DNA of 64,000 nt from Chloranthus sessilifolius (Eukaryota; Streptophyta; Magnoliopsida; Chloranthales; Chloranthaceae), in assembly GCA_021018995.1 (NCBI GenBank), contig CM037584.1, positions 173,556,317-173,620,316 of the forward strand, in the 5' to 3' direction. The notes below the pieces were generated by a model. The model was not told the DNA's origin. It ran no database searches and saw only the letters and a program-made list of their open reading frames with translations. Positions 2,701-51,962 of this stretch are shown here, in pieces. The stretch's first letter is position 1, and each line of letters starts with the position of its first letter. The position numbers and the translations under genes were made by a program.

Positions 2701-2783
2701 AGCTTGCAGCCGCTCCTCAAATTGATGATCTACGACAACATTGCTAGATTTTCCATCCAAATCACTTGCAAATCCAGGTGCCT
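2701..2783 (-). CDS. Exon 5 of the long-intron host gene
   Basis: An 83 bp block after the acceptor GACTTGTAG and before the donor GTAAGA. In the phase handed on by exon 4 it reads [16 protein letters not shown] and then [11 protein letters not shown], a mostly acidic, soluble stretch. The other frames are closed. The intron before it is about 12.7 kb and contains the whole 3790-10599 Copia element. The exon ends in phase 0; the next exon was not found between 1 and 2700. Confidence 0.55.
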
Positions 2784-5700
2784 CTACAAGTCAAAGCCAT
2801 ACTAGATCGGATAGATAAGCTAAATCCAGTAAAATGTTTACAAACGAAAATTGCAGAGGCAAGAAGGAAGACAAAATAATTTCCTCAATCAATAATAAGT
2901 GACGTTGAAAATGGAAATAAAAAAGTCAAAAAAGCAGGGTTATACAGTGAAGTATATCCCATTAGATTATAGGCTCCAGCTCTCACATCTTTAAGGGAAG
3001 CTTTAAATTCACCCACCGAATCTTTGAGTTCACCCACATTCAAAACCCATTGACTGCTTTGAATCAGATGATGGAGATCGTTTTTCATCCCAATCTTTCG
3101 CACGATCGATCTTGAGATCACGAGCGTACTATCAGACGATCTTCTTTTTTAATTTCATGTGGCACACATCCAAAAAAAGTGGCCTTAAAATCAGGTTTGA
3201 GCGTGATGAGTTCCACGCAATATTAAGGTCACTTTTCTGAGATGTGTGCGACGTGAAATTAAAAATTGGCTGTCTGATGGTAAGCCCATGATCTCAAGAT
3301 CCATCATGTGAAAGATTGAGTCGAAAAACGATCTCCTTCACTTGATTCAAAGCATTCAATGGGTTTCAGCGCGGGTGAACTCAAAGATTCGGTGGGTGAA
3401 TTTAAAGGCACTCTATCTTTAATCGAAACGTACACTCCAAACCTCTTTGTTGAAATTCACACTATTCAACCAACCAAAATTTTATATAAACTAGATTTGT
3501 ATGGTATCATAACGAAAAACAACAAAAGTAATCAGTGAGTTCCACACAAAAGACAATTTTCAGTCTGTTCATGCATAACATGCCGGAATAAGAATCAGAA
3601 TCCCAACCCAAAGCATAACTTTTCGAAGAGATCTTCTAGCAGACTACTATTCTATGTACCCAGTAGAGCTTTAACTCATCAGAACATAGATTAAAAAACA
3701 ACGATTTCATCCAAGTGAAACTAAACAAACATCCTAAATTATGAGCATGCCAAAGAAGAAATGGGAAAGAAACACAAGGATATTAATGCAGTAAAAAATT
3801 GAAGGAGGTTAGATTAGGGATAGGTTTGGTGAGGAAGAAGAGAGAAGAAGATTGGGAGAAATTAGGGTTGAGTCAATATGACTAAAATCCCAATGTAAGT
3901 TATTATTTATATCATCTTAGCATGTTCATGGATTACATGGTCCCATAGTTAGTTGAATTGTACAACTTAAAATTCACCTAACTAGACACATACCCAAAGT
4001 TACTCACTACACACCCATACAGTAGAAATATCATCTCCAACACTCCCCCTCAAGTCGGAGTATAGATGTCGATCATACCCAAATTGAAGATGTCATAAAG
4101 TCTCTTGCCTTTAGTCAAGATGTCGGTAAGTTGATCCTCAATTCTAACTTGAGGAATACTGATTTCTTTAGACTCGACCTTCTCGCGAATATAGTGACAA
4201 TCCACTTCAATGTGTTTTGTTCTTTCATGAAAGACAGGATTCTTAGCAATACGATGGGTGGCCTCATTGTCACCATACAAAGTAATTGGAAAAGAGAGAG
4301 TGACTCCCAAATCTGACAAGATGAATTTAAGCCACATGCCTTCTCTTGCACCCTGGGACATGGTGCGGTACTCCCCCTCAGCACTGGAGTTTGATACTAC
4401 ATGTTGCTTCTTAGATTTTCATGTGACCAAATTACCTCCCAAGAAGGTGCAATATCCTGTAGTTGATCTCCTATCATCCAAAGAACCGGTCCAATCGGCA
4501 TCAATAAATATCTCTACATCCAAATGGCCACGATTTTTATAGAGAAGCCCTTTGTCAGGACTTCCTTTCAGATACCTCAGGATCCTGTGAACAACCTCCA
4601 AATGTACGGTCCTTGGTGAGTGCATATATTGACTCACCACGCTTACTGCATAAGCAATGTCTAGACGAGTCATGGTTAGATAAATCAGTATGTCAACTGA
4701 TCTTTGATAGGAACGTGGATCCTTGAGCAGGTCACCTTCTTCACCATTTAATCGGTGATTTTGTTCAATAGGGGTCACAACAGGCCTACACCCCAAAAAC
4801 CTCGTATCATGAAGGAGGTCTATGGTATACTTCCGCTGGGATAACGAGATGCCCTTCTTAGATCTCGCCACTTCAATGTCAAGGAAATATTGCAAACTTC
4901 CCAAGTCTTTAATTTCAAACACTCTGCTCAAATACTCCTTCAGCTTCAGGATCTCATGACCATCATCACCAGTAATGATGATATCATCAACATAGACTAA
5001 TATGACCGTCATCTTGATCCCCCATTTTACAATTAGAGTATGATCATAGTGACTTCTTCGGTACCCAATCCTCATAATAGCTTTACTAAATTTTTGAAAT
5101 CATGCCCTTGGAGATTACTTTAATCCATAGATAGATTTCTTCAATCTACACACTTTTCCCTTCTCTCCTTTTACAAACCCAGGAGAAAGGTCCATGTAGA
5201 CTTTTCCTTGAGATCACCGTGAAGAAATGCATTCTTCACATCGAGTTGAGACAGTGGTCAGTCTTTGTGGGCAGCGAGAGATAACAATACCCTGACTGTG
5301 TTGGACTTGGCTACAGGTGCAAAGGTATCCTGATAATCTACTCCTTGTGTTTGAGTGTACCCCTTTGCTACAAGCGTTGCTTTGTATCTTTCGACAGTAC
5401 CATCGGGTCTATACTTAACTGTATACACCCATTTGCAACCAACAACACTCTTTCCTTCTGGGAGTTTAACAATTTCCCACGTTTGATTCTGTTCCAGAGC
5501 ATTCATCTCCTGAATCATAGCATCCTTCCATTTTGGCTGCAACAAGGCATCATAAACAGTAGAGGGAAGGGAGATAAAGTCAAGAGAACAAATAAAACTA
5601 TCATGGGATGATGAGAGATTATGATATGACATACTTACTGATGGGATGACGAGTGCACGAACTAGGAAGTCTTCTGTGAGCAATGGGTAGATGAAGACAA

Positions 5701-8700
5701 GAACCAAGAGGACCCTCTTCGGGTAAGGGATCCTGGTCGGTATTCTGAGAAGGAGACTTATCCACATTCTCATGCGTAGTGGCTTCGGCGATACTTTTGT
5801 TGTTCCTTCGCACATACATCTTTCCCCATCCATATTTATCAAAGATTGGTTGTTCGTTTTCTGTAGTTCAACAATTTCGTCATCCACTTCTTCACAATTT
5901 TCACCATCTCCCATAGGTAAAGCTCTAAATATCTCAGAGTGCTCTTCATTGTTACGTTGTGTCTCCCCCTGAAGAGGACTCAGAGGATGGGAGAAAGGGG
6001 TGCCCTCAAAGAATGTGACATCCATGGTGACTATCACACAACAAGTGAGAGGGCCAAAGCACTTGTATCCTTTCTGAGAAGAGGGATACTCAATAAAAAT
6101 ACACTTGGTAGCCTTAGGATCAAGTTTACTTCTCTGAATCTTGGGGATATGAGTAAAACATAAGGACCCAAAGATACGTGGTGGCACTATGAACAGAGGT
6201 CAACGAGGAAGCACAAGTTGGAAGGGAGAATGTCCGTCCAAAATAGGTGTAGGTATCCGATTGATAAGGTAGGCAGCAGTGAGAACAGCTTCAACCCAGA
6301 GATATTTAGGAACCTTCATATCAAACAATAGAGATCACACAACCTCGAGAAGATGCCTATTTTTCCTCTCAGCAATCCCATTCTGGTGGGAGTATAAGGA
6401 CAAGTAGTTTTCCACACAATTCCATGAGAGTTAAGGTAAGATTGAAGAATGTGAGAGGAATATTCCCCACCATTATCCGATTTAATGATCTTAACATGCC
6501 CATGAAATTGGGTGCTAACTAGTCTGTCAAACAGAGAAAAAATAGAGGCAACTTCATCTTTGGTGCGCATAAGGAAGAGCATAGTCAGTCTAGTAAGTCA
6601 TCAATAAAGCTAACAAAATAACGATAACCATGCAAAGCAGTAACAGGGGAAGGCCCCCACACATCAGAGTGAATAACTTCAAAAGGAATAGCACATTTAC
6701 TATCACTCAAGGGATAAGAATTACGAACATATTTAGAGAACTGACAAGTCTCACAATTAAACAAACTACTATCAAATCCATTAATTTTTTTTGAAAATAA
6801 AAGTTTCAAACGACTAATATGAGGGTGGCCACAGCGAGAGTGCCACAATCGAGCTTCATCAACAGAAACCATCATAGTTGCAGGAGGAGATGCACCACGT
6901 AAATCTTGAAAGAGGTAGAGTCCCTTCTCTTCAGTACCATGACCAAGGATCTTCCCCGATTTCAGGTCCTGGAAAACACAATGTGATGGAAAGAATGTCA
7001 CACTCTAATGTAAGGAATTGGTAATTTTACTGACAGATAATAGATTCATAGGCATGTTGGGAACTAAAAGAGTAGAGTCAAGGGACAAGGTGCCTAAGGG
7101 AACATTCCCTTTACCCTTTACGGGAACAAGGGATCCATCAGCAATGCGAATATGAATAAAATCAGAAAGACTAGACACGGATGAAAATAAATCTGTCATA
7201 CCAAACGTGTGATCCGTAGCCCCAGAATCGATGATCCATGGGGACTGAGAGGTTGAGGTCACATGGGCAGACCATAGGTACCTGACTCAGCTATGTGGGA
7301 GGAAGATGCCTATCCCTGTGTGACCGTCATGCGCTGAAGGCGGCCCTGGAGATCCTGAAGCTCTCTCTGTAAGCTCTGGAAATCAGCTGGAGGTGGAGCT
7401 GAAGGAGGAGGTGGTATGCTCTGACCAACAACTGGACTAGAAATGTCCTCAGTGGAAGACTGAAATGCGCGACCCGGAAGAAATTTTGGTTTCCCATGCA
7501 ATTCCCAACATCTTTCTCTGGTATGACCCTTCTTGCCACAATGAGAACATAATAATTTCTCTCTTTCTTCACGGGAGAGGCCCCCACGACCTCCACGACC
7601 ACCACCTCTACCACCAAACTTGCCTCCACCACGACCAAAAAAATGAAGGATGGTAGGACAAATCTCTCAGATATATTGCCACCAGGAATCTATATAAGCT
7701 GTTGCTTGCTCTCCTCATGCTGAAGGAGAGCATACACTATACCAAGTGGAGGACACTCCTCTCTGCCTAGAATGTTAGATTTAACATTCTCATATTCAGG
7801 TCTAACCCCTTTTAGGAAGGCGAACACTCTCCTGCTTTTAGTATTTTTACAAACCTTGCTGGCACACGAGCTGCACAGTTCTTCTTCTTGATATTGGGTT
7901 AGTTCATCCCACAAACTTCTCATTTGAGTGTAATACTCTCCAATGGTCTTATCACCTTGCTTCATAGTGTTAATTTTGTTACTCACCTGAAACATTTTTA
8001 CGAGGTTTTGTTTCTGCGAGAACTCATCTCTCACAGCCTCCCATAATTGTTTAGCATCACTGGCATACATAAAGGAATCACTAATGTCTGATTGCATGGA
8101 GTGTAACAGCCATGTCATGACAGTTAGATAGTCACTTTCCCAATCAATATACTTAGGGTCATCTTCTCTGGGTTTGTGGACAGTCCCGTAAATGTAACCC
8201 AACTTTTTCTTCATCCCTAAGTACATAGCAGTAGACTGAGACCACGAAAGATAATTGACTCCATTCAATTTCTTGGTAGTAATTTGTAAGTTATGAGAGA
8301 CATCTCCCCCGCCAACGATCCCGCATTTATTCTCGTCCATGATTAAGAGATACCGAGATCAAAAAGAAAAATTAAAAAAGGTAAGACCCTTCCAAACAGG
8401 GTTTCTAGGCTTCTCGCACCGACATCATTTTCCAGTAGATTTTCTGGGTGTCTTAAGGCATACTCCAGATTCCAGATTCCGGCAAGGGCAATCATAAAAA
8501 AAAAAAAAAAAAAAAAAAAACTGACTCACAGAAAAATTCTGTCGAGCATCACTGTTTCAGGTAGAGAATGACGCAGGACGGTACCCTAAACTACGTGAAT
8601 GCAATGATTGATTTTGCCGAAATTAAATGGAATTAAATTAAAGCAATAAAACCTTCAAAGCATAACGAATACCTCAGGTTTTCGTAGTATTCCATGGGAG

Positions 8701-11700
8701 GATCACGTATAATTCAGGCAGGGTTCAGTCCGGGCATTAGATCCGTTAGGTTGCAGCGTGGATCGTTCCTAGAGATAGAACTCTAGATTTTCAGATTAAG
8801 GCGCTCACAATGCAATGATGGAATATCTGGTTTTGGGTTATTTTGATATGGTTTGGGTTTAGCAGTCTGATGGAGGCTACGGTGGTTGAATCGGGTCAAT
8901 TCAATGGTTTAGGGAAAAGCTAGGGTTTAAGATTTCAAAAGGGATGATGGCCGAATTAAGGTTGTAGGATCACACAAGCAAAGGTTATAAGAGATAGATA
9001 GGTAGATAGAAGATAGATTTACAGGCTTCACACCCTTGCCTTCGCACCAAACCCTTCTCGGGAAGAAGAATCACTCTTCGAAGAAACTCATCTCAAGTCT
9101 CAAAGCAAAACGCTCATTCATTCAATAATCATCAACTAATTACATTGTTCACTTAAGGACCTTATATAGGAGTCCTTTCAAACCCTTCTCGGGAAGAAGA
9201 ATCACTCTTCGAAGAAACTCATCTCAAGTCTCAAAGCAAAACGCTCATTCATTCAATAATCATCAACTAATTACATTGTTCACTTAAGGACCTTATATAA
9301 GAGTCCTTTCAATAAAATAAAACCCTAAAACAAATAATAAATAAAAGACAAATAAACCCTCAAAAGTTCGAATTTAGACTTCAAAATTAACTAAACAACC
9401 CGGCGCGATTTTGATCGATCGAAATTGGAATTCAATCGATCGAAAGTGAAAATCAATCGATTGAATTTTATACATATAAAATATCGCCATCGACATTCGA
9501 TCAAACTAATTGAAATTCCTATCGATCGAAATTTTCGATCGATCGAATAGTCCATTCGATCGGTCGAAATTTCACTCTAGGACTATATAACTCTGTCGAT
9601 GCCATTCGATCGATCGAATTGGCTGATTCCTCCAATTTTTCTTCTTTCGCCTCATTCGCCTATTTCTGATTTCCATTCCGCTTCTTCCGATGTCGATATA
9701 CACGAAACGGTCTATATCCAATGCCTACGATGTCGGCGTCCCCGTCAGAGAATCATCACCACCGATTCACAAAAAAACTTAAAAAAAAAACAACAATAAA
9801 ACTGGTTTTTAATCTATCAAAAAATGCTCCCTACCAGTTTCAATGGCTTACTTGAGAAATCTGAGTGAGAACCACTTGTTAACTAGCCTTGAAAGAGAGC
9901 TATAACAGATCTGAGTTTTAGATCTCGTCTGTAACAGATCCGAGTTTCAGATCTCGTTGGAGAAGACGAAGCTGGAAGTCTATCTTCCAGTGATCAGATG
10001 GCTTGGCGGTAGAAGACAATTTTGCTGAGGATAAAAAACCGACCAAAACCATGTCAGTTAGATCTGAGTTTCAGATCTCGTCTACAATAAATCTGAGTTT
10101 TAGATCTCGTTGGAGAAGATGAAGCTGGAAGTCTATCTTCCGGTGATCAGATGGCTTGACGGTAGAAGACAACTTTGCTGAGGATAGAAAACCGACCAAA
10201 ACCATGTCAGTTCCGATCACTTTCGAGCAGGTCCAAGTTGGAATGCTGACGTCAACATGGCATCAGCTCTGACGTCAGCAATCGTAAGGTGATTTCAGCA
10301 CCAGCAATGTAGCGGAAATGTCAAACCTCGATCGTCTAGCTCTAATACCAAGTAAAAAAATTAAGGAGGTTAGATTAGGGTTAGGTTTGGTGTGGAAGAA
10401 GAGAGAAGAAGATTGGGAAAAATTAGGGTTGAGTCAATATGACTCAAACCCCAATGTAAGTTATTATTTATATCATCTTAACATATTCACGGATTACATG
10501 GTCCCATAGGTGAATTGTACAACTTAAAATTCACCTAACTACACACACACCCAAAGCTACTCACTACACACCCATACAGTAGAAATATCATCTCCAACAA
10601 ATGCATTACGTATTTGTTTGTCATACCTATATGCTAATACTTTTTTTTTAAATTGATTGTTTTTTAAAACTGAATCTTGTACCAAACATAGGGGCCATTG
10701 TTTGGTGCAACAGTATCACGGCTTGGGCTGTTAAATGTGAAGACACAGGTTCGAGTCCGGAGAGCAGCCACTTTGGGTGTAAAAAGCTAGAGGTTAGGTT
10801 TGTATCCCTCGACCCCGTATGTACAGGACCAGCATGGGCGATGACCTTTTAATCTTGCACCAATTACTTAAAATAATGAGGTTCGAAGTCTTAAGTTTCG
10901 GCTAAGTAGCTGCAATTTGGCTGAGGTGACCTGGTTTTGGTTGAATTGGAAAGAGTCGTTTGTGTCACAAGGACCTGCACTGGGGCACACAAGATTCAGT
11001 TGAGTTATATATCTCAGACTAATCGGTCAATCATGTGGTGGTGTGCAGGGGGTTCTAAATATTAAAAAAAAAAATCTAATTAATAATAAGATCAATATTA
11101 ATATTCATCTTAATGTTAATAAAAATAATATCATATAAATAATAATAATAATCACTCAATACCCATATTTGTCTACCTCTCATCTTCTAAAGCTTAGACA
11201 ACTTCGTTTCAAAATCTTGCAAAAAAACATTGGTTACTGGCCAAATCTACTGTTTGAAGCTTGGATCCTAAAATTTTTAAAGTTCTTCGGATTTTGCCCC
11301 TGAGGCAATATTCTTTTGTTTTTTTTAAATTAAATTAGGTAAAAAATGAGACTAACATTTAAAACATCAAAATATATGATGATTTGTGGATTTTGCTGTT
11401 GATTATTGCATAAGAATGTGGTTTTATATTTCTTAGCAAGTCTAATTCTACTAGAAGAAAAAAATAAGCAGCAAAAGTACAAATTTACAGCAGGGAGGAA
11501 ATTCAAAACTAAGCCCTACATTCAAACATTAAAAAGAGTAACATCCCATAAATTAGACCCACAGACCCACCACTTCAGTCATGCAAGGAACACCATATTT
11601 GCTCAGAAATCACATCTTTTTTCCTAATTTTCATGTGAATGTGGATAAATTATCTCTTGCATCACTTGGAGAAGCCGACCCATGTCCTTAAAATTTGTGG

Positions 11701-14700: not shown

Positions 14701-17700
14701 ACCCGTTAAACCTGTGAAGAACATACGCATTTCCACCATAAAAACCGTCAACTGTTTTGAATCGACAATGGAGATCGTTATTGTCCCAATCTTCCACACA
14801 ATAAATCTTGAGATCATGGCGCACCTATCAAACGATCAGATCGAGATTCCACATGGCACACATCCCCAGAAGTGGCCATGATCATGGGCATACCTATCAA
14901 ACGGTCACTTTTGGGGATGTGTGCCATGTGGAATCAACATGTGACCGTCTGACAGGTGCGCCATGATTTCAAGATCTATTGTGCGGAAGATTAGAACGAA
15001 AAACGATCTCCATCGTTTAATTCAAGGCAGTCAATGGTTTTTTATGGCAGAAATATGTGTGTTCTTCACGGGTTTTATGGGTGTAAATAATGCTACCCAA
15101 CAGAATATTGTTTCTCTTTTTTGTAAGAATTTGACAGCACTTCATTCCACTATAACTTTTGAATACTGCTAAAATCACAATAAATAAGGTTTGTTAGCAG
15201 TCTCCATTCGTATATATTACATATGTATGTGCAGTAAAAGCCACTATATGCTATAAAAAACCATCAACATACATGACATCAAAAAAGTACAATTACATAG
15301 CAGAATTACCAGATATTAGATAGCCAATGGTACCATTACAAAATGACCTTTTCACAACAATCAATAAAATAACTACAAACATAATTCAAACCAAGAAAAT
15401 TATTTACAAGGGAAAGTCAAAGAATAGATCCCTTACGCCTTGTTATTGCGTCAGATTGTCTAAATGTTGTTTGTCTGCACAAAAGAGAAGAGATCCAAGT
15501 CATTATAAAGAACAGAGAAGCCAACAAAGGGAATAATTATGAAGTCAAACAAAAATCAATTACCTTCCATTGTCATCCTTATCTTATTTTAAGAATAAAT
15601 ATATAAACTTTCTTCAATTGGTAGAAAATAATGTCATAAAGAAGTAAGGCAAGACCCACAAGCTCTAGTTGCTTGCATGCACACATGCATCCACGCATAT
15701 AAACACACATAAAAATAAGCTAAGCTTGCCTGTGTAAATACTTCAATAGCCTACAATAAAGTCTGAACATGTAAATAAGACCTCTCTTACATGTAACATG
15801 AGGATAAGAGCACTTCATTGGCCAACACAAGTTCATTCTAGAGGCCATTGAAGCCTGTACAAGTAAAAAAATCGGCAAATAAAGGTGGAAGAGAATGTGA
15901 TTTAGGACTTTGGGATCACAACATGACACTATCACACCTGGATATGCCACGCATGGGATCTTTAGAGAATTCTTGACGAGTTTTGTTTAACTAATCACAA
16001 GGACTGCAAGATAGGATAAAATTAGTAATTTAACTGTTAGTTTCCTGAATAGGATGGGATTTACTTTTCCTCAAATATAGGAAAACTGTTTGGATAGCAT
16101 TAGAAGTTGTTTAGACTGAATTAGGATTTTTGAAGTCTCTATAAAACAATAATAGGGGAGCTAGCCACCCTATGTTACTCTATTACAGAATTTTCAGGTC
16201 TAAAATTGGGATAGAAACTCTTTCTTTATTTTCTATCATGTTGCTTTCCTTCTCTACAACTCTTACAAAAAAATAAGGTTGGTTGTTGTCCTGTAATTTC
16301 AGTGATTTTTTGTTCTACTTGAAAATGCTTGATGTTATTTGTCAAGTTTGTCCATATCATTTTTGTTTTGTACTTAGTTCTTACATATCACTTCGAAGCT
16401 CATATATATATGCATAAATCCGGGCTATCAAAATAAACAAATCAACATTTGACGTCTCCTTCGAAAATTTTAAAACCTAAGAAATTGATATTTTAAAACA
16501 TTCCTTTGAAGTATCATTGACTTAGGATCTATATGTATTCCCTATTTTTATGTCTCTTAAAGAAACAGAAAACCACTAGAAATTCTTAGACCATGAAACC
16601 ACTAGCTGACTAGCATTTAATAGAGAATCGTATAGGAAAGAAATCCAGGAGGAAATAATATGGTTACATTGAGAAAGAGTTGTAACTAGATAACCGTATA
16701 GGAACATTTGATGTGCAGTTATTTAGCCTACCCTTTTTGTGATGGAACTCTTCTGTCCTCTTTTGGTGGCTTCACATTGTTCGACTGTAATAAACAAAAA
16801 TAATCTTTCAATGTGTTGCTTCCGTAAAAAATATTCTCCAAAATTTGTCCTTCATGTATTAAAAAAAAGTCAACATGTCATCATTTGAGATATTATTCTT
16901 TAAATGTATTGGTTCAGTAAATAAATTCAACAAAAAATAAGATTGTTGCCATTAAAAATTCCATGCAATAGGATGCTATCCATAAACAACCGTGGAAATA
17001 TAAAATTAGTGCATAATTTATACTTCAAATGCAACTAAGCTATTTCAGTATTGTTGTGAACTCAAAAGGAAATTTAGTCTAGGAAGCAATTTGATTATAT
17101 CAAAACAAAGTTTGAAGTGAAGAAACTCCAATGCCTCAAAATTGAAGATTATTTAAGAAAATAGGGATGCAAATTCTTCCCAACTTAATTTAAAAATCTT
17201 CAACCAAACAAAAAATCATTACCACCGATCCGTATGTGTGTGGTATAGGCTCCATTCTATTTCCTCCCGTCGTATGCAGATTCAATTATCTCCCCGAGCT
17301 AAAAAAGATTTATCCCAACAAAAAAAGAAGATAGATGCTTTCTTAAAATAGCAATTTTATTAAAATAGTAAGGGCACTCTCTTTATACTGAAACCTCCCC
17401 AAAATAGAAAGTTTCACAATATATAAATTTACCTAAAGCAGCAATATTTTTACATTGAAACTTTCAGAAAATAAAAGCCTATACAAATCTTGGCTACTAC
17501 TTATTCTTCAGTTAAGAGAATAAAAATAGTCGCTTCTTGTCAAGTTAGCAAGACATTGTTATGAGAACATGTCCCATGACTGCCCAGCAGCCCTCGCTCA
17601 AACTGATTTCAACACCTTTAGACATATCTAGGACTCAGGGACATTTCTTGGTGCAATGGTAAAAGGCTTGGGATGAGGCGTGAAAACATGTGTTCGAGTC

Positions 17701-19611: not shown

Positions 19612-19647
<36 letters not shown>

Positions 19648-22600
19648 CCAAATTGTACTGGCCGATACATCAATCAATTTATCGAATTTCTGATATATTG
19701 ACCATGCTTATAATTATGAGAATTCAAGGTTCGAACTTCATCCTATGGAAAGGACAGCTTGTGTCTTTAGTCTTGTCACAATATCTGGGAAATCACTAGG
19801 ATGGATCCATTCATGCACCTTTGGAGAATATTTTGCTTAAAGAGATACCAGTTATGGAAGGAAACACTAATAAATAGTGTTACATCTATTAGATTTTGTG
19901 GCCTTCAAAACCCCATTTGATTTAATTAACCTCTCTTTGATTACTTAAACACTAGATCATAGTCATCTATCCCTAATTTGGTCAATTGTGCTATTGTGGT
20001 TTTACACTTCTAGCACTGTCTATGCTCTTGGACACTCAAGGAGTGTTCCTAGTGATACCCTATCTGTAATAAATAGTTGAGAGAGAACACAATATGGGTA
20101 AGTTTAAGTAAATTAAGACTGCGTTTGGGTCAGCTCTTATAAGAGCAGTTTTATCACTTAAGGCGAGGAGCTGTGTTACCAAACATGAAAGCAGTTTTCT
20201 GCTGGAACCAAAGTGTGAAAGAGCTAACCCAAACACAGCCTAATACTTTGAGTTGTGAGAGCAAACAAAATGAGGGCACTATATGACATGGATTTAAACA
20301 AATGATCCAGATAACAAGTGCTCTAATATCAACATTTTCTTTTTTCTCGTTGAGACGTGTCAACCATTAGCATATCAATATCCCTTCCAATTAGAAAGAG
20401 ATTTATTGAAATAGTCATCAACAAAAGAATAGATTTTGAATCTATATAGGATAGATGTGCGGAGCATAAGTTTCAAATACCTGCAAAAGAGAGTTTTCTT
20501 CATTTTCAACAAACGTTAAATGTCATTTTAAAACTTCTAAATGATAATAGAACTTTCCATCTCTACCACTAGGGATGCAGATTCGGTTAACCGAACCGAA
20601 AACAAAACCGTTCGATTTTCGGATCGGATCAGCCTAAACCAAAACCGAACCGAAAGGATTGAGTTTTGTTTGCGGTTAACGTTTTGCTCAATAGATCGAA
20701 CCAAAAAACCCAAATGAAACAGGAAAAAAAAATCAGTTCGGTTCGGGTTTTTTTTTACTTTTGTCGGCATTTCATTTTTTCGGTTTTTTATGATTTAGAC
20801 CCAGTTTTCTAAATCTACCAAACCAGTTTTCAGTTTTGTCCACCCAAAACTGAAACCGAACCGATTGGAATCAGTTCAATTTTTTCAGTTTTGGACAGGT
20901 TTCGGTTTTTTATTTTTTTTCGGGTTTTTCTGATTTGGGGTCGGTTTTCTAAACCTACCCAACCAGTTTTCGGTTTTGGCCACCCAAAACTGAAACCAAA
21001 CCGATTGGAATCAATTCAATTTTTTTTGGTTTTGGATCGGTTTCGGTTCAGTCTGTGGGCCGGTTTTTCGGTCGGTTTCGGTTTTTGGTTCAAAACTTGC
21101 ACCCCTATCTGCAACCAATAAGACAATAAAAATATATGTACATGGCAGAAACCATTATGTAGAAGTGCAGCATGCCTGCATCACCATTCCAAAAAATAAT
21201 CATAACAAGATAAATGCAATATCAATAGCCTAAATCTAAGGCTGTGTTTCAGTTAGCTCTTATAAAAGCAGAAGCAACTCTTTGCCTGCTCTCTGTCAAA
21301 GCAGATAAAATCTGCTCTGGGATAGAGCACGCATGGAGCAGTTTTATCACTTAAAACAACTCCCCGCCAGAGCAAATGAGGCAAGGAGCTGCATTACCAA
21401 ATGTAAAAGTAGTTCTCCGACGGAGCCAAAAAGTGAAAGAGCTGTTCTTAGCCTCAAAAGAGCTAACCCAAACGCAGCCTAACACATTAATTTATGAACT
21501 AAGTTCATGAAAGAAAAATAAAAGAATGATGCATTATTTTAGGGCGCATTCTTTAAATGTTGAGCAAGAGGCTACCAGAAACTACAGAGACATTAATTAG
21601 ACATACAAACATTTCATTCTATTTTCTCCCCCCCCCAACCACACACACACAAAAAAATTAATTATTAAAGTTTAAATAAAAAGAGACTACCTTCTCTTTT
21701 TTCTTAGATTGAGGGCCAAAGCCACGGCTACCATTTGAAGCTGAACAAAGAATGTTAAATGTCTTCCGAGCTTGATCATTAGAACAAACATATAAACCAA
21801 CTTTTTTGAAACCCTTGCCCTTAAAACATATAGCATATCTCGTGAGGGATGTATTTGCCTGAAACTTTGGTGGTTTACTCATCAGAAACACTTGGAAGGC
21901 AAGGATAAAAAGAGAGTCAACTTAAGAAGATTCTTGTAGTACTAAAAGTATAAAAATAATGAATAATTTTTTTTTAAATTGATGACAATCTTAGTACCCT
22001 TATATGAAGTAAATAAGAGATAAATGCTCTATCAGCATATGTTGTGGATTATGATGAAATGGTACAAAAACAGAGATGATTTCCATGTAGAATGTGGAAG
22101 CGGGAAAAAAGATGTACTCTTATAGCCTAGTGGAAATATTCAAATACTTGAGCAATAAAAGGTTTACAAACCTTACAAATTGAAATGAACACACATTTAA
22201 AAAAGAGATCGACTCTCCTCACCATTGCACTTTTAGGCCACGCAATGCCATATGGTGCACTTTGACCAAACGACAACGCTCAAATGGCAGGCCATCATTT
22301 GAACTTAACACGGCCCAAAAGTCAAGACCATCAACGGATTCATAACAATCATAGCACTTTAATATGGACCCTACAGTAGATATGAACAATTGTTTATATT
22401 AAATGATGTAATCGAATGGTTCGGTCGTAACTTTTGGGCTGAGTTTTGTTCAAATGATGCCCAGCCATTTGAACAACATGGTGTTAAAATTGGGCTCTAA
22501 GTTTGGTTCTCGCCCGAGCGAGAATCGGGCTCTCCCAAGCAAGGTCCGAAGTCCACTTCGTTGGACGCTCAAGCGAAGTGGAATTCACCCGAGCAAGGAG

Positions 22601-25600
22601 CACAGTAACTCACTAGTCGCCTGAGCGAGGTCCGAATATGCCCGGGCGAGTGCGTGCATATTGGTTCGACTTGAAGCAGTTTTACTTAGTTTAGGAGTCT
22701 ATTTTCAAGGCACCTATTTAAGGGACGAATCTATGGCTTTGAAAAGTCCCAAAAAAGCTAGAGAAAACCTATCTAGGGATTTGAGGAGAGCTTTGTGAGG
22801 CTTGAGAGAGTTCTTGTATTCTTGTAAATCATCAATATAGTGAATCATCACTGCTCGTGGACGTAAGCAAATTGTCGAACCACGTAAATCTTGTCTCTTA
22901 TGTGATTGTGTTTGATTTTCTCTTATTTTGCGTTTGTTAGATCGTTAGTTAATTTGAGAGCTTCCGCCCAACAAATTGGTATCAAAGTTATTAGGTTTTT
23001 ATTCTATGATCGGAAATGACATCAAAGTTCGTAAAGGTTTCGAATGCGAGGTTCGAGGTTGAGAAATTTGACAGGAAGATTGATTTCGGATTGTGGCAAG
23101 TATAAGTCCGGGATATCTTGATTCAACAAGGGCTGCATAAGGTGTTGCAAGGGCTTAAGGGTAAGTCGGCAGATATGTCCGATAGTGATTGGGAAGAATT
23201 TAAACTTCAAACGTGTAGTACGATGCGGCTATGTCTAGCAAAGGAGATAACGTAGAACGTGATGTGGGAGAACTCGGGGGCCGCGCTATGGGCCAAATTG
23301 GAGAGTCTCTACATGATAAAATCTTTGACGACTTACCTATATCTCAAGAAGCAACTATACAAGTTGTACATGAAGGAAGGTACTCCTCTCAACAAACATC
23401 TTAATGAATTCAATAGAATAATATTTGAATTATTAATATTGGAGAAGAGGTTAAGGATGAAGACAAAGTATTATTGTTTTTGTCTTCCCTCCCCGATTCT
23501 TATGAGCACCTAGTTACTACGTTGCTCTATGGGAAGGACACTATTGAACTGGAGTCAGTTACAGCTGCACTGCTTTGTAACGACTAGTGGCATGAGAAAG
23601 AAGAGTTTGGATAGTGATACACAAGAGGATGACTTGTTGATTAGGGAGAGGTTAGAGGACCGTAAATTTGAAAGGGGTAGATCAAAATCAAGATCTAAAT
23701 CCAGAAACAAAAAAACTATAAGAAGTTAAAGTGTCACGAGAATGATCACATTAGAAGGCCTTGTCCTCAGTTACGGGTTAAGAGGACAGAAGCCCAGGAT
23801 AAAAAGTTGAAAGGGGTTGTTGATGAGGCTGGTGCAGCCAAACAAGCTCCGGATGATGATGGAAACATATTGTCAATGGTCTTTGAGAAATACTGTTAGA
23901 ATGTACGAATACTTGATTCAGGGTGCTCCTACCACGTGTCCAAATAGGGTCTGGTTCACGTCTTATACAAAGGTGGATGGCAGAACAATTTTGATGGGTA
24001 ACAATATGGCCTGCATAACCATTGGCAAAGAAAGCATCAGAATAAAGATGCACGGCGGGATTGTTAGAACATTGATTGATGTACGACATATACCGGAACT
24101 GACGAAGAACCTCATATCACTTGGTACGTTAGACTCTAATGGGCTCAAGTTTATAGCTCAAGGTGGAGTTTTGAAGGTGACTAAGGGATCTTCGGTGGTG
24201 ATGAAAGCGGAAGAGGTTGGGAACATATACTTTCTATCAGGGAACAAAGTGATAGGTAGAGCGGCAGTGTCTATGTCAAATGATAGCAGTTTGTCATCGA
24301 CACAGTTATGGCACATGCGCCTAGATATCAGAAAGATGGATGACAGAATTGAGCAAGAAAGGCTTATTGAAGAGTGTAAGGGTTAGCAAGGTTGACTTTT
24401 GTGAACATTGTGTCTTTAGAAAATAGTACAAGGTTAAGTTCAACACAGCGGTCCACACAACAAAAGGCATACTGGACTATATACATTCAGATGTATGGGG
24501 CCTTCAAAGGTTCCTTCTAGAGGTGGTGCCAGATACTTTATTTCCTTATCGATAATTACTCTCGGTATGTATGGATCTACATGATGAATAGTAAGGATGA
24601 GATTTTCAAGAAGTGGATGATACTGTTTGAGAACCAGACTAGTAGGAAGGCCAAGCGGTTGAGAACCGATAATGGTGGTGAGTACACCAGTGGACAGTTC
24701 CAAAAGTTCTGTGAAGAGAACGATATTGCAAGGCACTTCACAATGAGGAATACACCGCAGCAAAATGATACAGCATAACGTATAAACAGAACTCTACTTG
24801 AAAAGGCAAGAAGTATGTTATCCAATGTGGGATTGGGTAAAGAGTTCTGGGTTGAGGCAGTCAATACGGTGTGCTATAACAGATTACCATTTACAACAAT
24901 AGAGTGCAAGAATCCAATTGAGACATGGTGAGGGGAGCCTGCAGATTATAGTGCACTTTGGATGCGCAACTTACTATCATGTCAAAGATAGTAAAATTGT
25001 CCCAAGAGTTAAGAAGGCGATCATCTTAGGATATGTAGATGGGATGAAAGGATACAAGTTATGGTGTCCTAAGCAGAATAAGGTTGTGATCAGCGAAGAT
25101 GTGACCTTTGATGAGTCTTTTATGCAAACTTTTAACAAACAGAGTGTGAAAATTGGAGAGATAGTGAAAGATCAGTTTGAGGTGAAGTTTCTAACTCCTA
25201 CAAATACTACATCAGGAAAGGATATAGAGATTTCAAGTGTAGAAACAATTGAGAGAAAACCAGAGCAATCTTTAGCAGGTCGAAGACCTAAAAGGAATGT
25301 TAGAGCACCAGTTCGCTATGGTTACGAGAATACGGTCGTTACGCGTTGACGTTGGATAGTAATGAGCCATCTTCATTCAAGGATGCAATCAATAGAAAGA
25401 ATAGAAGACCGCCATGGGTGAAGAGATAGATTCTCTTTACAATAATCAAACTTGAGAACTGACAAAGTTACTTAAGGGAAAAAGAGTTATAGGGTGCAAG
25501 TGGGTTTATAAGAAGAAAGAGGGTTCCCCGGAAAATAGTGGTACAAGATATAAGGCACGATTGGTAGCCAAGGGCTATGCGCAAAAGGAAGGAGTTGATT

Positions 25601-28600
25601 ATAATGAGGTGTTCTACCGGTTGTGAAACACACTTCAATCTGGGTTTTGTTGTCAATTGTGGCATAATTGAACTTAGTTGGAGTAACTCGATCTGAAAAC
25701 GGCATTTCTACATGGTGATTTAGAGGAGATTTCTATGAATCAACCTAAAGGGTTCAAATCCCCTGAAGAATAGAGGTTAGTGTGCAAACTGAAGAAGTAT
25801 TTGTACGTGTTAAAGCAATCGTCGAGACAATGGTACAAGAGGTTTGACACATTAATGGTGGGCCAAAATTACATTAGAAGTGAGTACAGCAATTGCGTTT
25901 ACTTCAAAAATCTAGCATATGGCTCATTTATTTATCTTCTCTTATATGTTTTTTTTTTTTGATAACCTGGGTATCCGGGCCTCTTAGAGCACCCGCCTAA
26001 TCCTAGGGGCACATGCGTACCCCAAATTCAGCACATGTTGGGTCAGCACAGGATATAAATCCCTAGGGTGGCCTCAAGGGGGTGAGGGGATTCGAACGCA
26101 GGTCTCTTGCTTTTGGAAGGAAGTACCTGGCCAGCTCACCTAACCCCTTGAGGTTATCTTCTCTTATATGTTGATGACATATTCAAAGCTGCAAAGAGCG
26201 TGGTGGAGATCAATAAGTTGAAATTTCTACTTAGAATGAAGCTTGAGATGAAGGATCTTGGTGCAGCGAAAAAGATTCTTGAGATAGAGATTGTGAAAGA
26301 TAGAGAGAAAGGGCAGTTGTGTCTAACACAGAAAAGTTATCTAGAGAAGGAACTCTTAAGATATGGGATGGAGAACTCAAAGGCAATGAGTACTCCATTG
26401 GCAGCTCACTTTCATTTTTCGACTAGCCTGTCTCCTACTACGGATCAGGAGCATGACCATATCACTCGTGTTCCCTATGAGAGTGCGGTTGGTAGTTTGA
26501 TGTAGGCTACAATGTGCACTCTACCGGATATTTCATAAGTCATTAGCGTAGTTAGCAGGTATATAACAAACCCGGGCAAGGAGCATTGACAGGCAGTGAA
26601 ATGGATTATAAGGCACATATGCGGTACAATGGATGTTGGTTGGTTTTTCTCAGTGGTACAGATCATCAATTACATTGTTACGTAGATTCGGATTATATTG
26701 GTGATTTGGATAAGCGTCGGTCTACAACTGGATATGTATTTACATTATCTGGTGGTCCAATTAGCTAGAGGTCGATGTTACATGATATAGTGGTTTTGTC
26801 TACTACAGAAGCATAATATATTGCAGTAACAGAAGTTGTGAAAGAAGCATTATGGCTTCAAGGTTTGATTGGTGAGTTGGGGATCACACGGGATAGTGTT
26901 GATGTGTGTTGCGATAGCCAAAGTGCTATTTATTTAGTAAAAAACAACGTATATCATACTCGTACCGAACACATTAATTTACGATATCACTTCGTGCGAG
27001 AAGTAATCGAAGATGGAAAGATATCTTTGAAGAAGGTGAGTACAAAGGACAATCATGCGGATATGATCACAAAGGTGGGGCCAGCGGTCAAGTCTAAGCA
27101 AATGTTTGAACTTGATCAATGTTCAACAGGTTTAAGCGCCCTCGGGGTGCTGGAGGCAGTGGTGACAAGGGTTTAAGGATGATTTACAGATAGAGTACAT
27201 GACAGTTTAGAGCCAAGTGGAGAATTGCTAAAATTGGGCTCTAACTTTGGTTATCTCCCGAGCGAGAATCGGGCTCACCCGAGCCAGTTTACCACACCAG
27301 AATTACGCTCACTGGATGCTCGAGCGAAGTGGAATTCACCCGAGCGAGGAGCACAGTAACTCACTGGTCGCCCGGGCAAGGTCTGAATCCGCACGAGCGA
27401 GTGCGTGCATATTCATTCAATTTGAAGCATTTTTACTTGGTTTAGGAGTTTGTTTTCAAGGCACTTATTTAAGGGAAACTCTTGGACGAATCTAGGGTTC
27501 CGGAAAAGCTAGAGAAAACCTATCAAGGATTTTGTGGAGAGCTTTGTGAGGCTTGAGAGAGTTCTTGTATTCTTATAAATCATCAATATAGCGAATCACC
27601 GCTGCTTGTGGACGTAGGCAAATTGCCGAACCACATAAATCTTGTCTCTTGTGTGATTTTGTTTGATTTTCTCTTATTTTGCGTTCTTATTTAATCGTTC
27701 ATCGTGAAATCGTTGGTTAATTTGACAGCTTCCACACAACACTTGGATTTAAAAAGTTAGTGCCACACGGCCTATAAAGTGGGATGTTGAGGGTGTAAGC
27801 CCAACTAGACAGTGATCTCCCATTAATCATAATAAAAAAGAACATTCGACAAAAGTAAGAAATGCAATGGTTAAAGGTGCTCTGATCCAACCAGCTAATA
27901 ATATATTCATATGATAATTGACAAATATATATGCTTTTGAAAGCACCCTAGCATAAGTCTCAAGGGTATTCTATTAGCAAAGGTCGAGTCTCATTTCTCT
28001 TAACATATCAGTCACCTAATGTCTTCCTATGATATAGTAAGATACTCAAATTGATGCCCTTTTAGCTCCTCTCGATCGGTTAATCATTCAGTGGCAAGTT
28101 TTCTATCCAAAGATTTTTTCTCACTTTGTATGCAAAACCATGATTTCCGAATTTACTGTGACCCCACTAATTCCAAACCGAATTAATAAATTTCCATATA
28201 TCCTTTTTTCACTTTTAACATTTCTAGGAAAAACTAGCACAGAGATTGTGGTGAAAGAGGGAGTTTCCTGACATTCGTACTTGTTTGGAAATTTTATCTT
28301 GCCATATATGAGTTATTTTTTTCAGCCATTTTTTTATGCTTCGATTGGACTCAAACATCTTTTTCAGAAAAAAATATATAATAATTATAGATCTAACCAA
28401 ACCCACAATAAATTAACTTAACTTTTGGGTGTTATGGGTTTTCTTTTTTCTTTTTGCAAAATAAGTGACATTTTATAAACATTTGCATCTATGCAAAACT
28501 ATTTTATAACTAATATTATTTTAGATTTTTTGTGATTGTGCACCCAAATGGTACCCTAATAAATCTTTTTAGGCAGTTGCAAAATCTTGAAAAACAAAAC

Positions 28601-28978
28601 AAAAAACTGGACACAAATTCGGAAACTATGATCAAGACTTGACCATAAACAAAACCCTTTTACAGGTAGAAAGCACTCAGCATGTAAAAACTAATATCAC
28701 ATTACAAAAATCAGAAATTGAGACGTTAATAAGCGAACAAAAAAAATGACAAAATGGGTTTGTTGAGAATGAAGAATGGCCGAATTTCACGAAAATTATT
28801 ATGGGCTTGGTCCCAAATCGAGTAAAAAGATTCTGAGCTGCAGTTAATTACACATGCTAAAACTAAGAGCAACCAAATTGGTAGCAAACAGCTATGACGT
28901 TAATACAAACATAGAGTTGAAATATGAATTGGAGTAGTTAGAGACGTTACTGACCGTTGCAGGAAGCCGAAATTCCAT
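2701..28978 (-). CDS. Host gene with very long introns: putative plastid-targeted protein, exons 1-5 (3' part beyond left edge)
   Basis: Five short open blocks on the minus strand join through GT-AG junctions into one frame with no stop: 28951-28978, 21691-21890, 16732-16784, 15437-15474 and 2701-2783. Junction phases agree at every step (1, 0, 2, 1; the last exon ends in phase 0). The N-terminal 70 or so residues are rich in basic and hydroxylated residues with few acids, and contain [16 protein letters not shown], which resembles a plastid transit-peptide cleavage region. A basic, Pro/Lys-rich linker follows, then an acidic stretch ending FEERLQA. Introns of about 7.1, 4.9, 1.3 and 12.7 kb hold Copia elements, SINEs and MITEs. 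No exon after 2701 was found in the window, so the C-terminal part should lie to the left. The family is not recognised. The phase consistency is what persuades me; exon choice was made by eye and could be wrong in places. Confidence 0.55.
2995..3413. mobile_element. Mutator-type foldback MITE
   Basis: A 419 bp near-palindrome with arms of about 200 bp: GGGAAGCTTTAAATTCACCC at one end, GGTGGGTGAATTTAAAGG near the other. The 9-bp TSD differs at one base (CATCTTTAA at 2986-2994, TATCTTTAA at 3414-3422). The arms share a core with the copies at 14685, 29190, 57235, 58110, 60002 and 62580. It lies in intron 4 of the host gene. Confidence 0.7.
3790..4042 (-). repeat. 3' LTR of the 3790-10599 Copia element
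   Basis: 253 bp, matching 10351-10599. On the element's strand it starts TGTTGG and ends TTTACT, so the termini are TG...CT rather than TG...CA. The TSD beside it fixes both borders. A purine tract (CTTGAGGGGGAG on minus) abuts it inside. Confidence 0.9.
4050..6187 (-). pseudogene. Reverse transcriptase and RNase H region of the Copia element (3790-10599)
   Basis: Integrase C-terminal part with PP.IFGSLCF, then RT start [19 protein letters not shown] and [19 protein letters not shown], active-site block [12 protein letters not shown], and RNase H with [37 protein letters not shown] and the usual DQLTDILTK end. Fossil coding region with several breaks. Confidence 0.8.
6190..7265 (-). pseudogene. 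Protease and integrase region of the Copia element (3790-10599)
   Basis: Protease motif IIDSGATDH near 7235. Pre-integrase segment [15 protein letters not shown] and CETCQFSKY, then integrase core IHSDVWGP and SDNGGEYSS. The order fits Copia. Fossil coding region. Confidence 0.75.
7440..8340 (-). pseudogene. gag region of the Copia element (3790-10599)
   Basis: Begins [17 protein letters not shown] and continues with the Copia gag core ([18 protein letters not shown], then W....W...SD). A CCHC-type zinc knuckle lies near 7500-7560. Leu/Trp-rich helices typical of plant UBN2-type gag are clear. Fossil coding region. Confidence 0.75.
9050..9311. repeat. 131 bp tandem duplication
   Basis: Two head-to-tail copies (9050-9180, 9181-9311) beginning AACCCTTCTCGGGAAG, nearly identical. 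The close match implies a recent duplication inside the Copia leader. Confidence 0.85.
9405..9620. repeat. Cluster of CGATCGA palindromic words
   Basis: About ten TCGATCGA, ATCGATTG or near-variant words spaced by AT-rich linkers. Comparable clusters lie at 42130-42320, 50525-51025 and 63829-63990. Confidence 0.7.
10339..10350 (-). promoter_or_regulatory. Primer-binding site of the Copia element
   Basis: The minus strand reads TGGTATTAGAGC, one base from the usual initiator tRNA-Met site, and touches the LTR with no spacer. Confidence 0.7.
10351..10599 (-). repeat. 5' LTR of the 3790-10599 Copia element
   Basis: 249 bp partner of 3790-4042, directly adjoining the primer-binding site at 10339-10350. 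It differs from its partner at about 13 positions plus a short gap. Confidence 0.9.
10686..10850 (+). mobile_element. tRNA-derived SINE (Au-SINE-like), copy 1
   Basis: 165 bp with an internal Pol III B-box (GGTTCGAGTCC) and the segment GAGCAGCCACTTTGGG, shared with the SINE at 17636. Flanked by a 13-bp TSD AATCTTG(T/C)ACCAA (10673-10685, 10851-10863). The likeness to plant Au SINEs is from memory. Confidence 0.7.
10864..12139. other. Intronic spacer and unclassified sequence
   Basis: 10864-11060 holds GAGTT/AAGTTTCGG-like words of unknown origin. 11060-11640 is AT-rich. 11640-12122 has open minus-strand stretches of no recognised family that seem to continue at 13850-14480 beyond the truncated Copia copy. 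Confidence 0.35.
12140..13840 (+). mobile_element. Truncated Copia element: reverse transcriptase to 3' LTR
   Basis: Plus-strand fragment starting inside RT ([13 protein letters not shown] near 12258), then a VDDI-type block, a [15 protein letters not shown]-like block, RNase H ([17 protein letters not shown] near 12888), the purine tract GAGGGGGAG at 13588-13596 and a 3' LTR from about 13597 to 13840. It resembles the 3790-10599 element in the RT and RNase H blocks. The 5' half is missing and the rest is broken in several places. A hAT MITE sits inside it. Confidence 0.8.
13101..13335. mobile_element. hAT-type MITE, CGATAC-word subfamily (copy B), nested in Copia
   Basis: Begins CCATGGTTAAAAAATTGG and ends, on the other strand, CATGGGTCAAAATCTCG. 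TSD CCTTCCTA / AGTTCCTA (13093-13100, 13336-13343; 6 of 8). The flanks fit together as an uninterrupted Copia RNase H region when compared with the element at 3790, which confirms the insertion. Confidence 0.7.
13841..14675. other. Unclassified sequence with interrupted minus-strand open stretches
   Basis: On the minus strand, stretches such as [20 protein letters not shown] (near 14400) and [20 protein letters not shown] (near 13950) look protein-like, with stops between them. I do not recognise the family; a decayed LINE or host pseudogene is possible. The Copia fragment at 12140-13840 lies in the middle of it. Confidence 0.3.
14685..15098. mobile_element. Mutator-type foldback MITE
   Basis: 414 bp with terminal inverted repeats GGGTAGCGTTATTTACACCC and its near-complement, arms of about 190 bp. 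The 9-bp TSD AATAGAATA / AACAGAATA (14676-14684, 15099-15107) differs at one base. Same core as 2995-3413. Confidence 0.8.
15437..15474 (-). CDS. Exon 4 of the long-intron host gene (38 bp small exon)
   Basis: This small exon lies between a strong acceptor (TCTTCTCTTTTGTGCAG) and a GTAAGG donor. Entering in phase 2 from exon 3 it reads [12 protein letters not shown] and leaves in phase 1. The leftover C joins AG of the next exon to give Gln. The frame match on both sides supports it, but 38 bp is short enough for chance. Confidence 0.42.
15475..16731. other. Intron 3 of the host gene
   Basis: Mostly AT-rich. From about 15900 to 16300 the plus strand has TATAAAACAATAATAGGGG, then a T-rich transcript-like stretch, resembling a small Copia LTR; no border pair was found. 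The cryptic exon at 15791-15854 lies here. Confidence 0.35.
15791..15854 (-). other. Possible cryptic or poison exon in intron 3 of the host gene
   Basis: A 64 bp block has a good acceptor (pyrimidine-rich tract, then CTTGTACAG) and a consensus donor (GTAAGAG). Included between exons 3 and 4 in the inherited phase, it would meet a stop after six codons. It therefore cannot be a normal coding exon of this gene, but inclusion would truncate the product. It may also be a chance pair of splice-like sites. Confidence 0.25.
16732..16784 (-). CDS. Exon 3 of the long-intron host gene
   Basis: A 53 bp block between the acceptor TTTGTTTATTACAG and the donor GG|GTAGGC. In the phase set by exon 2 it reads [17 protein letters not shown], a hydrophilic basic linker that continues the KKKEK end of exon 2. 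The other two frames hit a stop. It ends in phase 2. Confidence 0.5.
17636..17814 (+). mobile_element. tRNA-derived SINE (Au-SINE-like), copy 2
   Basis: 179 bp. A-box-like GGTGCAATGGTAAAAGGCT, B-box GTTCGAGTCC, then GGGAAGCAGCCACTTTG. Flanked by the 13-bp TSD CATATCTAGGA(C/T)T (17623-17635, 17815-17827). Same family as 10686-10850. Confidence 0.8.
18146..18329. mobile_element. hAT-type MITE, CGAAA-word subfamily (copy D), nested
   Basis: 184 bp, ends CATGGATCAAAATTTCGG and, on the other strand, TAAGGATCAAAATATCGG. Exact 8-bp TSD CTTAGCCC (18138-18145, 18330-18337). Sits inside the element at 17863-19706. Confidence 0.8.
18340..19400 (+). other. LTR-like or captured promoter/leader segment
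   Basis: CTCGAGCGAG-like words at 18535-18600, a TATATATAGAGG motif near 18690, then a stretch containing TTGGTGCAAAGCC and GGTGTGAAGCCTTAGAATC. The same words occur, on the minus strand, in the Copia leader near 9000-9050. It is probably an LTR fragment, but no borders were found. Confidence 0.35.
20117..20240. mobile_element. Tourist-like (PIF/Harbinger) MITE, short copy
   Basis: 124 bp; one end GACTGCGTTTGGGTCAGCTC, the other GAGCTAACCCAAACACAGCC. Flanked by TAA on both sides. Internal blocks match 21240-21479, of which it is a shortened copy. Confidence 0.75.
20570..21107. mobile_element. hAT-type MITE with CCGAAACCGA words
   Basis: 538 bp with TAGGGATGCA at one end and TGCACCCCTA at the other, the classic TAGGGGTGCA hAT terminus. 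TSD TCTACCAC / TCTGCAAC (6 of 8). The interior is almost entirely GGTTTCGGTT-type words and their complements. Confidence 0.75.
21240..21479. mobile_element. Tourist-like (PIF/Harbinger) MITE, full copy
   Basis: 240 bp, ends GGCTGTGTTT and AAACGCAGCC-type, exact 3-bp TSD TAA. Sits about 210 bp from exon 2 of the host gene. Confidence 0.8.
21691..21890 (-). CDS. Exon 2 of the long-intron host gene (transit peptide region)
   Basis: This 200 bp exon follows a CCTTCCAAG acceptor and ends AAAGAGAAG|GTAGTC. It encodes about 66 residues. [19 protein letters not shown] near the start is basic and Ser/Thr-containing; [17 protein letters not shown] near the end resembles a plastid cleavage region followed by a glycine/proline turn and a Lys-rich run. 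If exon 1 is wrong, translation could start at the ATG at 21882, in the same frame. No repeat similarity was seen inside the exon, unlike the DNA on both sides. Confidence 0.55.
22482..22973 (+). repeat. 5' LTR of the Tork-like element
   Basis: 492 bp, TG...CA termini. Contains CTCGCCCGAGCGAG-type palindromic words near the start, a TATTTAAGG motif and a transcript-like tail. Followed by AAT and the primer site. Confidence 0.85.
22976..22988 (+). promoter_or_regulatory. Primer-binding site of the Tork-like element
   Basis: TTGGTATCAAAGT, close to the complement of the initiator tRNA-Met 3' end, starting 3 bases after the LTR. Confidence 0.65.
23030..25340 (+). pseudogene. gag, protease and integrase region of the Tork-like element
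   Basis: The gag core [20 protein letters not shown] and [15 protein letters not shown] is close to Tnt1-type gag. A basic RSKSRSKSR tail and a pre-integrase LWHMRL follow, then integrase with [13 protein letters not shown] and the C-terminal [12 protein letters not shown] segment. Fossil. Confidence 0.75.
25350..27175 (+). pseudogene. Reverse transcriptase and RNase H region of the Tork-like element
   Basis: RT blocks GCKWVYKKK and [14 protein letters not shown], the YVDD-type region around 26165, [14 protein letters not shown], and RNase H with [39 protein letters not shown] and ADMITK. Fossil; the SINE at 25949-26153 lies within it. Confidence 0.75.
25949..26153 (-). mobile_element. tRNA-derived SINE nested in the Tork-like element
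   Basis: 205 bp on the minus strand with a 12-base A tail. B-box GCGTTCGAATCCC and an A-box-like TTAGGTGAGCTGG. The 17-bp TSD TTATCTTCTCTTATATG is perfect (25932-25948, 26154-26170). It is a different family from the two Au-like copies. Confidence 0.88.
27226..27741 (+). repeat. 3' LTR of the Tork-like element
   Basis: 516 bp partner of 22482-22973. Preceded by the short purine stretch AAGTGGAGAAT. The CGAGCGAG word region is the least conserved part between the two LTRs. Confidence 0.85.
27779..28950. other. Intron 1 spacer
   Basis: AT-rich, without repeats I could classify and without coding frames of interest. Confidence 0.4.
28951..28978 (-). CDS. Exon 1 of the long-intron host gene (start codon)
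   Basis: The ATG lies in the sequence ACCATGG, with A at -3 and G at +4, a near-ideal plant start context. The exon encodes MEFRLPATV plus one base and ends at a GTAACG donor. A TATAAAT box lies about 120 bp upstream, and the leader between them is short and pyrimidine-rich. An upstream ATG near 29021 is in another frame, in a weak context, and would stop soon after the first junction, so it could act as an upstream overlapping ORF. The split A|TG codon at the junction regenerates ATG in exon 2. This is the least certain exon because it is so short. Confidence 0.42.
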
Positions 28979-29105: not shown

Positions 29106-29189
29106 AAATTTAAGTTGTGTGTGGAAAATTAGTAAAAATTGTTGTTTACCCAAATGCTTTTGAGTACCTTTAAATGCCCCAACGAATAT

Positions 29190-29566
29190 TTGAGGGCGCC
29201 TATTCTGAAAACTCAGTGACTGCTTTGAATTAAACAATGGAAATCTCTTTTCATCCCAAGATTCCACATAATAGATCTTGAGACCATGCCTACCTTGAGA
29301 CAGTCAAACTTTGATTTAATGTAGCACAGACCCCAAGAAAAGTGTGATTTAAAAATCATGTGGCACTATCATGTTGAAATCTGATTTTAAGGTCCTGAGA
29401 TATGTGCCGTGCAAAATTAAAATTTTACTGTATGATGGTGCGCCCATAATCTCGAGATCCATTATCCGAAAGATTGGGAAGAATGGGACAAAAAATGATC
29501 TCCATCATCTCATTCAAAATTGTCAAAGGGTTTTCAGCATGGGCTCTCTTAAAGACCATCCAAGGT
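29190..29566. mobile_element. Mutator-type foldback MITE upstream of the host gene
   Basis: Left arm GGGCGCCTATTCTGAAAACTC, right arm ending TTTTCAGCATGGGCTC, with the shared core GATCTTGAGACCATG / ATAATCTCGAGATCC. Borders are approximate; no clear TSD. Confidence 0.55.
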
Positions 29567-37391: not shown

Positions 37392-37398
37392 CCCCCCA

Positions 37399-43062: not shown

Positions 43063-43067
43063 AGAGC

Positions 43068-43860: not shown

Positions 43861-43898
43861 GTTGGATCAAAGAGAGCTCGCGGAAGCTTTAATGGAGA

Positions 43899-43911
43899 GG
43901 CTTTGATACCA
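43899..43911 (-). promoter_or_regulatory. Primer-binding site of the Ale-like element
   Basis: The minus strand reads TGGTATCAAAGCC, an initiator tRNA-Met type site directly beside the LTR. Confidence 0.7.
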
Positions 43912-45614: not shown

Positions 45615-45619
45615 TTAAG

Positions 45620-51960: not shown

Positions 51961-51962
51961 AT

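Follow-up and report, generated by a model that had tools for sequence, protein, structure and literature searches.

The window analysed here is a stretch of 64,000 nucleotides from Chloranthus sessilifolius (C1:173556317-173620316, forward-strand contig positions). A gene model of 16 exons starts on its minus strand with an ATG at 28978 and continues beyond its left edge to a stop codon at -42993 (coordinates are window positions, negative values lying left of position 1; Table 1). Obtained by joining exons in the window with others in the DNA to the left, the model covers 71,972 bp and encodes a product of 424 amino acids in a coding sequence of 1275 nt, which forms one open frame with no stop or frame break. 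Its introns, 15 of 15 with GT-AG borders, total 70.7 kb, with a median length of 3.46 kb and a maximum of 12.65 kb. We interpret the locus, with a probability of about 0.88, as a single-copy nuclear gene for a chloroplast membrane TPR protein, most likely the ortholog of TTP1, whose 16 exons have come to lie across 72 kb through transposons in the introns.

Table 1. Exons of the gene model, and transposon features in its introns and directly upstream
Feature	Position	Strand	Remarks
Exon 1	28978-28955	-	24 nt, MEFRLPAT; phase 0 to 0; donor ACG/GTCAGT
Exon 2	21858-21691	-	168 nt (56 codons), phase 0 to 0; contains putative transit peptide and NGSRGFG, ends in basic KKKEK
Exon 3 (provisional)	16784-16732	-	53 nt, basic linker; phase 0 to 2
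Exon 4 (provisional)	15474-15437	-	38 nt; phase 2 to 1
Exon 5	2783-2693	-	91 nt, contains FEERLQA; phase 1 to 2; joins exon 6 at -8429
Exon 6	-8429 to -8534	-	frame continued from exon 5
Exon 7	-8653 to -8723	-	in frame
Exon 8	-12185 to -12254	-	in frame
Exon 9	-12472 to -12534	-	in frame
Exon 10	-23897 to -23968	-	in frame
Exon 11	-24104 to -24205	-	in frame; donor weak, 31.4th percentile
Exon 12	-25095 to -25169	-	in frame
Exon 13	-33012 to -33119	-	in frame
Exon 14	-34605 to -34721	-	in frame
Exon 15	-40080 to -40136	-	in frame
Exon 16	-42934 to -42993	-	in frame, stop at end
Copia element A	3790-10599	- (gene's strand)	intron 4; LTRs about 3790-4042 and 10351-10599; edges read by eye
Copia element B	22482-27741	+ (antisense to gene)	intron 1; LTRs about 22482-22973 and 27226-27741
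MITE-like inverted-repeat element	3001-3407	.	intron 4, about 220 bp from exon 5 acceptor
Related MITE-like copy	29169-29555	.	directly upstream of putative promoter; repeat families D2, D5, inverted pairs I8, I9
zf-RVT piece	-1991 to -1014		intron 5; Pfam
Two Gypsy-type pieces	-18211 to -16034		intron 9; RVT_1, RNase H, integrase zinc domains
Two Copia RVT_2 pieces	-38575 to -37361		intron 14; Pfam

The five window exons

A preliminary description of this DNA had proposed five short minus-strand exons that join in one frame, with matching phases, across four introns of about 26 kb, and had given their outer coordinates only. We reconstructed the inner exons from minus-strand open stretches between AG and GT, and the phases do fit, with introns of 7096, 4906, 1257 and 12653 bp that sum to 25,912 bp. 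The proposed ACCATGG context surrounds the ATG, and the basic linker and FEERLQA segment were likewise recovered, basic sequence being present in exons 2 and 3 and FEERLQA in exon 5. The outer end had to be moved from 2701: we place the end of exon 5 at 2693 because the donor at 2692 (AAA/GTTAGT) scores 1.4, as against 0.3 for that of the proposed end (GCT/GTAAGA), and because it alone of the two supplies the phase needed by the best acceptor of exon 6. The proposed TATA box loses its value as evidence, since TATAAAT does occur at 29105-29099, at a distance of 121 bp upstream of the ATG, but is one of 43 such strings in the window, where 30 are expected.

Chains of five exons were ranked by codon and splice scores, using a codon table trained on exons 6-16 only together with approximate matrices for plant splice sites, which also underlie the exon scan, the ranking of exon 3/exon 4 pairs and the site percentiles given here. 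With the corrected end of exon 5, the proposed chain reaches 9.1. A different five-exon chain, at 45.9, is the top scorer in the real sequence; the maximum on the opposite strand is 42.1, and the maxima of 12 dinucleotide shuffles range from 25.2 to 48.2. We therefore rejected the notion that splice and codon scores suffice to establish exons 1-5, and the claim of a gene cannot be upheld within the window by itself. Searches of exon peptides against Pfam and PDB, and against the text of papers, returned nothing useful.

Neither is copy number a guide to which stretches are true exons. When searched against the genome, the stretches of exons 2, 3 and 4 match only themselves, and in the protein search of the same genome exon 5 matches only this locus; two rival stretches, however, also match only themselves, so that single-copy status does not discriminate.

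Eleven exons to the left

The proof of the gene lies in the DNA left of the window and not in the window exons themselves. The preliminary description had suggested looking there for the remaining exons, and in the 60 kb adjoining position 1 we find eleven, all in frame and ending in a stop. They were located with search phrases typical of a plant protein family, and the independent test is that of Pfam on the joined protein, which detects a TPR domain. The in-frame exons, the stop and this domain together support the proposal that a host gene with transposon-filled introns lies here.

Less secure is the 5' part. The gene could begin to be reliable only at exon 5 or exon 2, with exons 1, 3 and/or 4 as chance openings and a true 5' part that has other exons or a different start; we regard this as rather unlikely, while granting it appreciable weight. 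Such a reading draws on the failure of the five-exon chain to beat the shuffles, on the two competing stretches that are also single copy, and on other in-frame choices that score equally well or better: of the 1080 in-frame pairs between exons 2 and 5 above the splice threshold, the exon 3/exon 4 pair comes 14th, and both exons could be skipped through a weak acceptor at 2781. Their donor and acceptor sites nevertheless argue for retaining them, as the exon 3 acceptor and donor and the exon 4 acceptor all lie at or above the 97th percentile (the last at the 99.8th), with the exon 4 donor weak at the 79.6th. Exon 2 is an open exon of 56 codons that is joined to exon 1 in phase 0 and leads on to a basic segment, and the exon 1 donor reaches the 96.8th percentile among all minus-strand GT in 124 kb. 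A further argument comes from Arabidopsis TTP1, considered below: one T-DNA is reported to lie in its "15th exon" (PMC10967246), and TTP1 therefore has at least 15 exons, compared with 16 in our model and 14 without exons 3 and 4. As the longer model agrees better with this number, keeping both exons, as provisional ones, is favored.

Transposons in the introns

Two complete Copia elements had been described as intronic passengers. Their LTR pairs and target-site duplications (perfect in element A, with one mismatch in element B) are consistent with complete structures, but their coding frames are broken, and at most they are complete in structure only. Element A is assigned to LTR/Copia by its LTR pair (94.1% aligned identity, K2P 0.061), its perfect 5-bp target-site duplication AATGC and its Copia-type domains, RVT_2 and gag_2, the coding sequence of which is broken over several frames. 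In element B, a probable LTR/Copia retrotransposon where the LTR ends adjoining the primer site and the flanks were read by eye, the LTRs are 86.7% identical (K2P 0.147) and the flanks CATGG/CTTGG differ by one mismatch; Pol_BBD and SH3 domains were detected in its broken coding sequence, whereas neither of the two ORFs that reach 120 amino acids carries RVT_2.

To the left, we listed 48 ORFs of at least 110 amino acids and scanned ten of them with Pfam, five of which matched. These add pieces of Gypsy-type and Copia elements and a zf-RVT piece, a domain that we take to be typical of LINE-type elements, so that transposon coding domains are found in at least five introns (1, 4, 5, 9 and 14). 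Intron 4 also holds a MITE-like element with perfect 28-nt inverted ends and with arms (3043-3137/3272-3366) that are 85% complementary. Members of this MITE-like family occur in the window at 3001-3407, 14778-15044, 29169-29555 and 60001-60434 and are 62-77% alike in ungapped comparison (D2, D5). Separately, a stretch of intron 1 (28450-28562) recurs at 77-89% identity in at least 41 further places of the genome.

The transposons in the introns have left the reading frame of the gene intact, and are therefore passengers removed with the introns, if splicing proceeds as modelled. Under the proposed history, insertions of Copia, Gypsy, LINE-type and MITE-like elements into introns would have spread 16 short exons over 72 kb, the gene being so long because transposons fill its introns; the whole stretch of about 72 kb would be transcribed, and the transposons would leave with the introns. 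That the locus is instead a decayed copy, in which the insertions have ended splicing into a working mRNA, appears very improbable. The number of introns with transposon coding domains speaks for such decay, as does the same-strand Copia in intron 4, which could end transcription early. Yet 1275 nt in 16 exons carry no stop or frame break, even though element B is old enough for its LTRs to have diverged by 0.147, and no second copy that could have taken over was found among the best candidates scored.

Read-through of intronic transposons in plants has been studied under the proteins IBM2 and EDM2, which silence intronic transposons in Arabidopsis. We give scarcely any credence to the further idea that the stretched gene acts as a timer, in which the copying of about 72 kb would delay a scaffold of chlorophyll synthesis after a light signal, while the amount of full-length mRNA would depend on how far the same-strand Copia in intron 4 is silenced.

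Copy number and gene length in this genome

Searching the 2.17-Gb genome (32 contigs) with the protein, and scoring the best candidates, we found no second copy of the gene. Fourteen of the 16 matches are exons of this gene, and the other two are weak matches to the TPR part (E 0.09-0.13); exons 1 (24 nt) and 4 (38 nt) were not matched separately.

As a control, the chaperonin family PF00118 has 69 matches in the genome. Grouped by eye (at least two matches on the same strand within 60 kb, lone matches excluded), they form 14 clusters, eight of which span more than 25 kb and up to about 54 kb, with the proviso that a cluster may join a gene and a fragment next to it. In this genome, then, stretched genes seem to be common, and the 72-kb gene is real but ordinary here. 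Some of the chaperonin clusters are paired copies with matching profile segments, one pair being C3:113.11-113.16 Mb and C13:38.31-38.37 Mb, and another C9:30.31-30.36 and 47.60-47.63 Mb; these pairs may be traces of an old duplication of the genome or of segments.

Intronic LTR retrotransposons have been reported to stretch genes in Chloranthus spicatus (PMC8626473) and in Pinus massoniana (PMC12122422), in the latter through mostly low-copy families. The cause of the long introns is the same in those plants as here. Those studies are, however, genome-wide surveys, whereas we describe one gene, element by element.

The protein product

In the joined protein of 424 amino acids, Pfam detects the TPR domain with TPR_19 (E 1.5e-15), TPR_14 (1.4e-12), TPR_16 (1.5e-12) and many other TPR models. 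The division into five TPR motifs is our own: when the segments were tested singly, four of five matched TPR models, but weakly, with best E values of 0.002-0.033 that fall short of the curated cut-offs, and the fifth had no Pfam match alone, being covered only within the whole protein, by TPR_17 at residues 369-400 (E 1.8e-9). A single strong hydrophobic helix precedes the TPRs at residues 161-179, with a mean hydropathy peak of 2.31, and no other separate 19-residue window of the product has a mean hydropathy above 1.2. The first 50 residues contain eight R/K, two D/E and eight S/T. This composition, together with the likeness to the published architecture of TTP1, makes it probable that the protein is plastid-targeted, in agreement with the preliminary description.

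More distant comparisons place the product among TPR proteins in general. NCBIfam yielded 20 families, mostly of TPR proteins and all below their cut-offs, and the matches in PDB are to TPR proteins of a generic kind. In bacterial and archaeal genomes one locus was matched, in a Methanosarcina assembly, at 37% identity over the TPR part; among viral contigs, searched with a portion of the downstream protein, no relative was found.

Relation to TTP1

Arabidopsis TTP1 (At1g78915) is reported to be a plastid protein of tetrapyrrole biosynthesis, a Pitt-like scaffold of chlorophyll synthesis, in which a transit peptide and an N-terminal membrane domain are followed by a linker and five TPR motifs; it has a cyanobacterial homolog, Pitt (PMC10967246). 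TTP1 is described as binding glutamyl-tRNA reductase (GluTR), protochlorophyllide oxidoreductase (POR) and CHL27 at plastid membranes, and the etiolated seedlings of knockouts as greening more slowly (PMC10967246). The product described here shares with it a membrane helix N-terminal to the TPRs, a linker, about five C-terminal TPR motifs and a putative transit peptide. The likeness is one of architecture and exon number, and the introns here total 70.7 kb. From these features and what is known of the family, we consider the gene to be probably the TTP1 ortholog of this plant.

The generic TPR matches fail to separate subfamilies, and the product might in principle be a different TPR protein of the chloroplast, such as a member of the SG1/lumen common family. 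We judge this improbable and have set that family aside: SG1 has 316 amino acids and four TPR motifs (PMC3935568), as against 424 amino acids, a hydrophobic helix before the TPRs and about five TPRs here. Moreover, TTP1 is reported to be the sole candidate with a transmembrane domain among six Pitt-like Arabidopsis candidates (PMC10967246). If it works as TTP1 does, the protein would anchor glutamyl-tRNA reductase and protochlorophyllide oxidoreductase to the thylakoid membrane, and it is perhaps a helper of chlorophyll synthesis.

Implications and other features of the window

A real gene was recovered here from window exons of 24-168 bp, which are too short and too scattered to beat chance alone. 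The locus is therefore a caution for gene prediction where genomes are rich in transposons. The underlying biology is already known. Exon 5, with its 91 bp flanked by introns of 12.7 and 11.1 kb, offers a concrete long-intron case for plant splicing past same-strand retrotransposons.

Outside the gene, the window contains a third Copia element on the minus strand (37102-44217), with LTRs 94.8% alike and RVT_2, SH3, Pol_BBD and gag domains. A fourth LTR pair (45617-52476, 88.9% alike) encloses one ORF of at least 120 amino acids, which had no Pfam match, and many copies of TCGATTAATCGA around 50576-50983. Finally, a tRNA-Thr(AGT) gene lies on the minus strand at 61185-61261 (Rfam, 68.3 bits).
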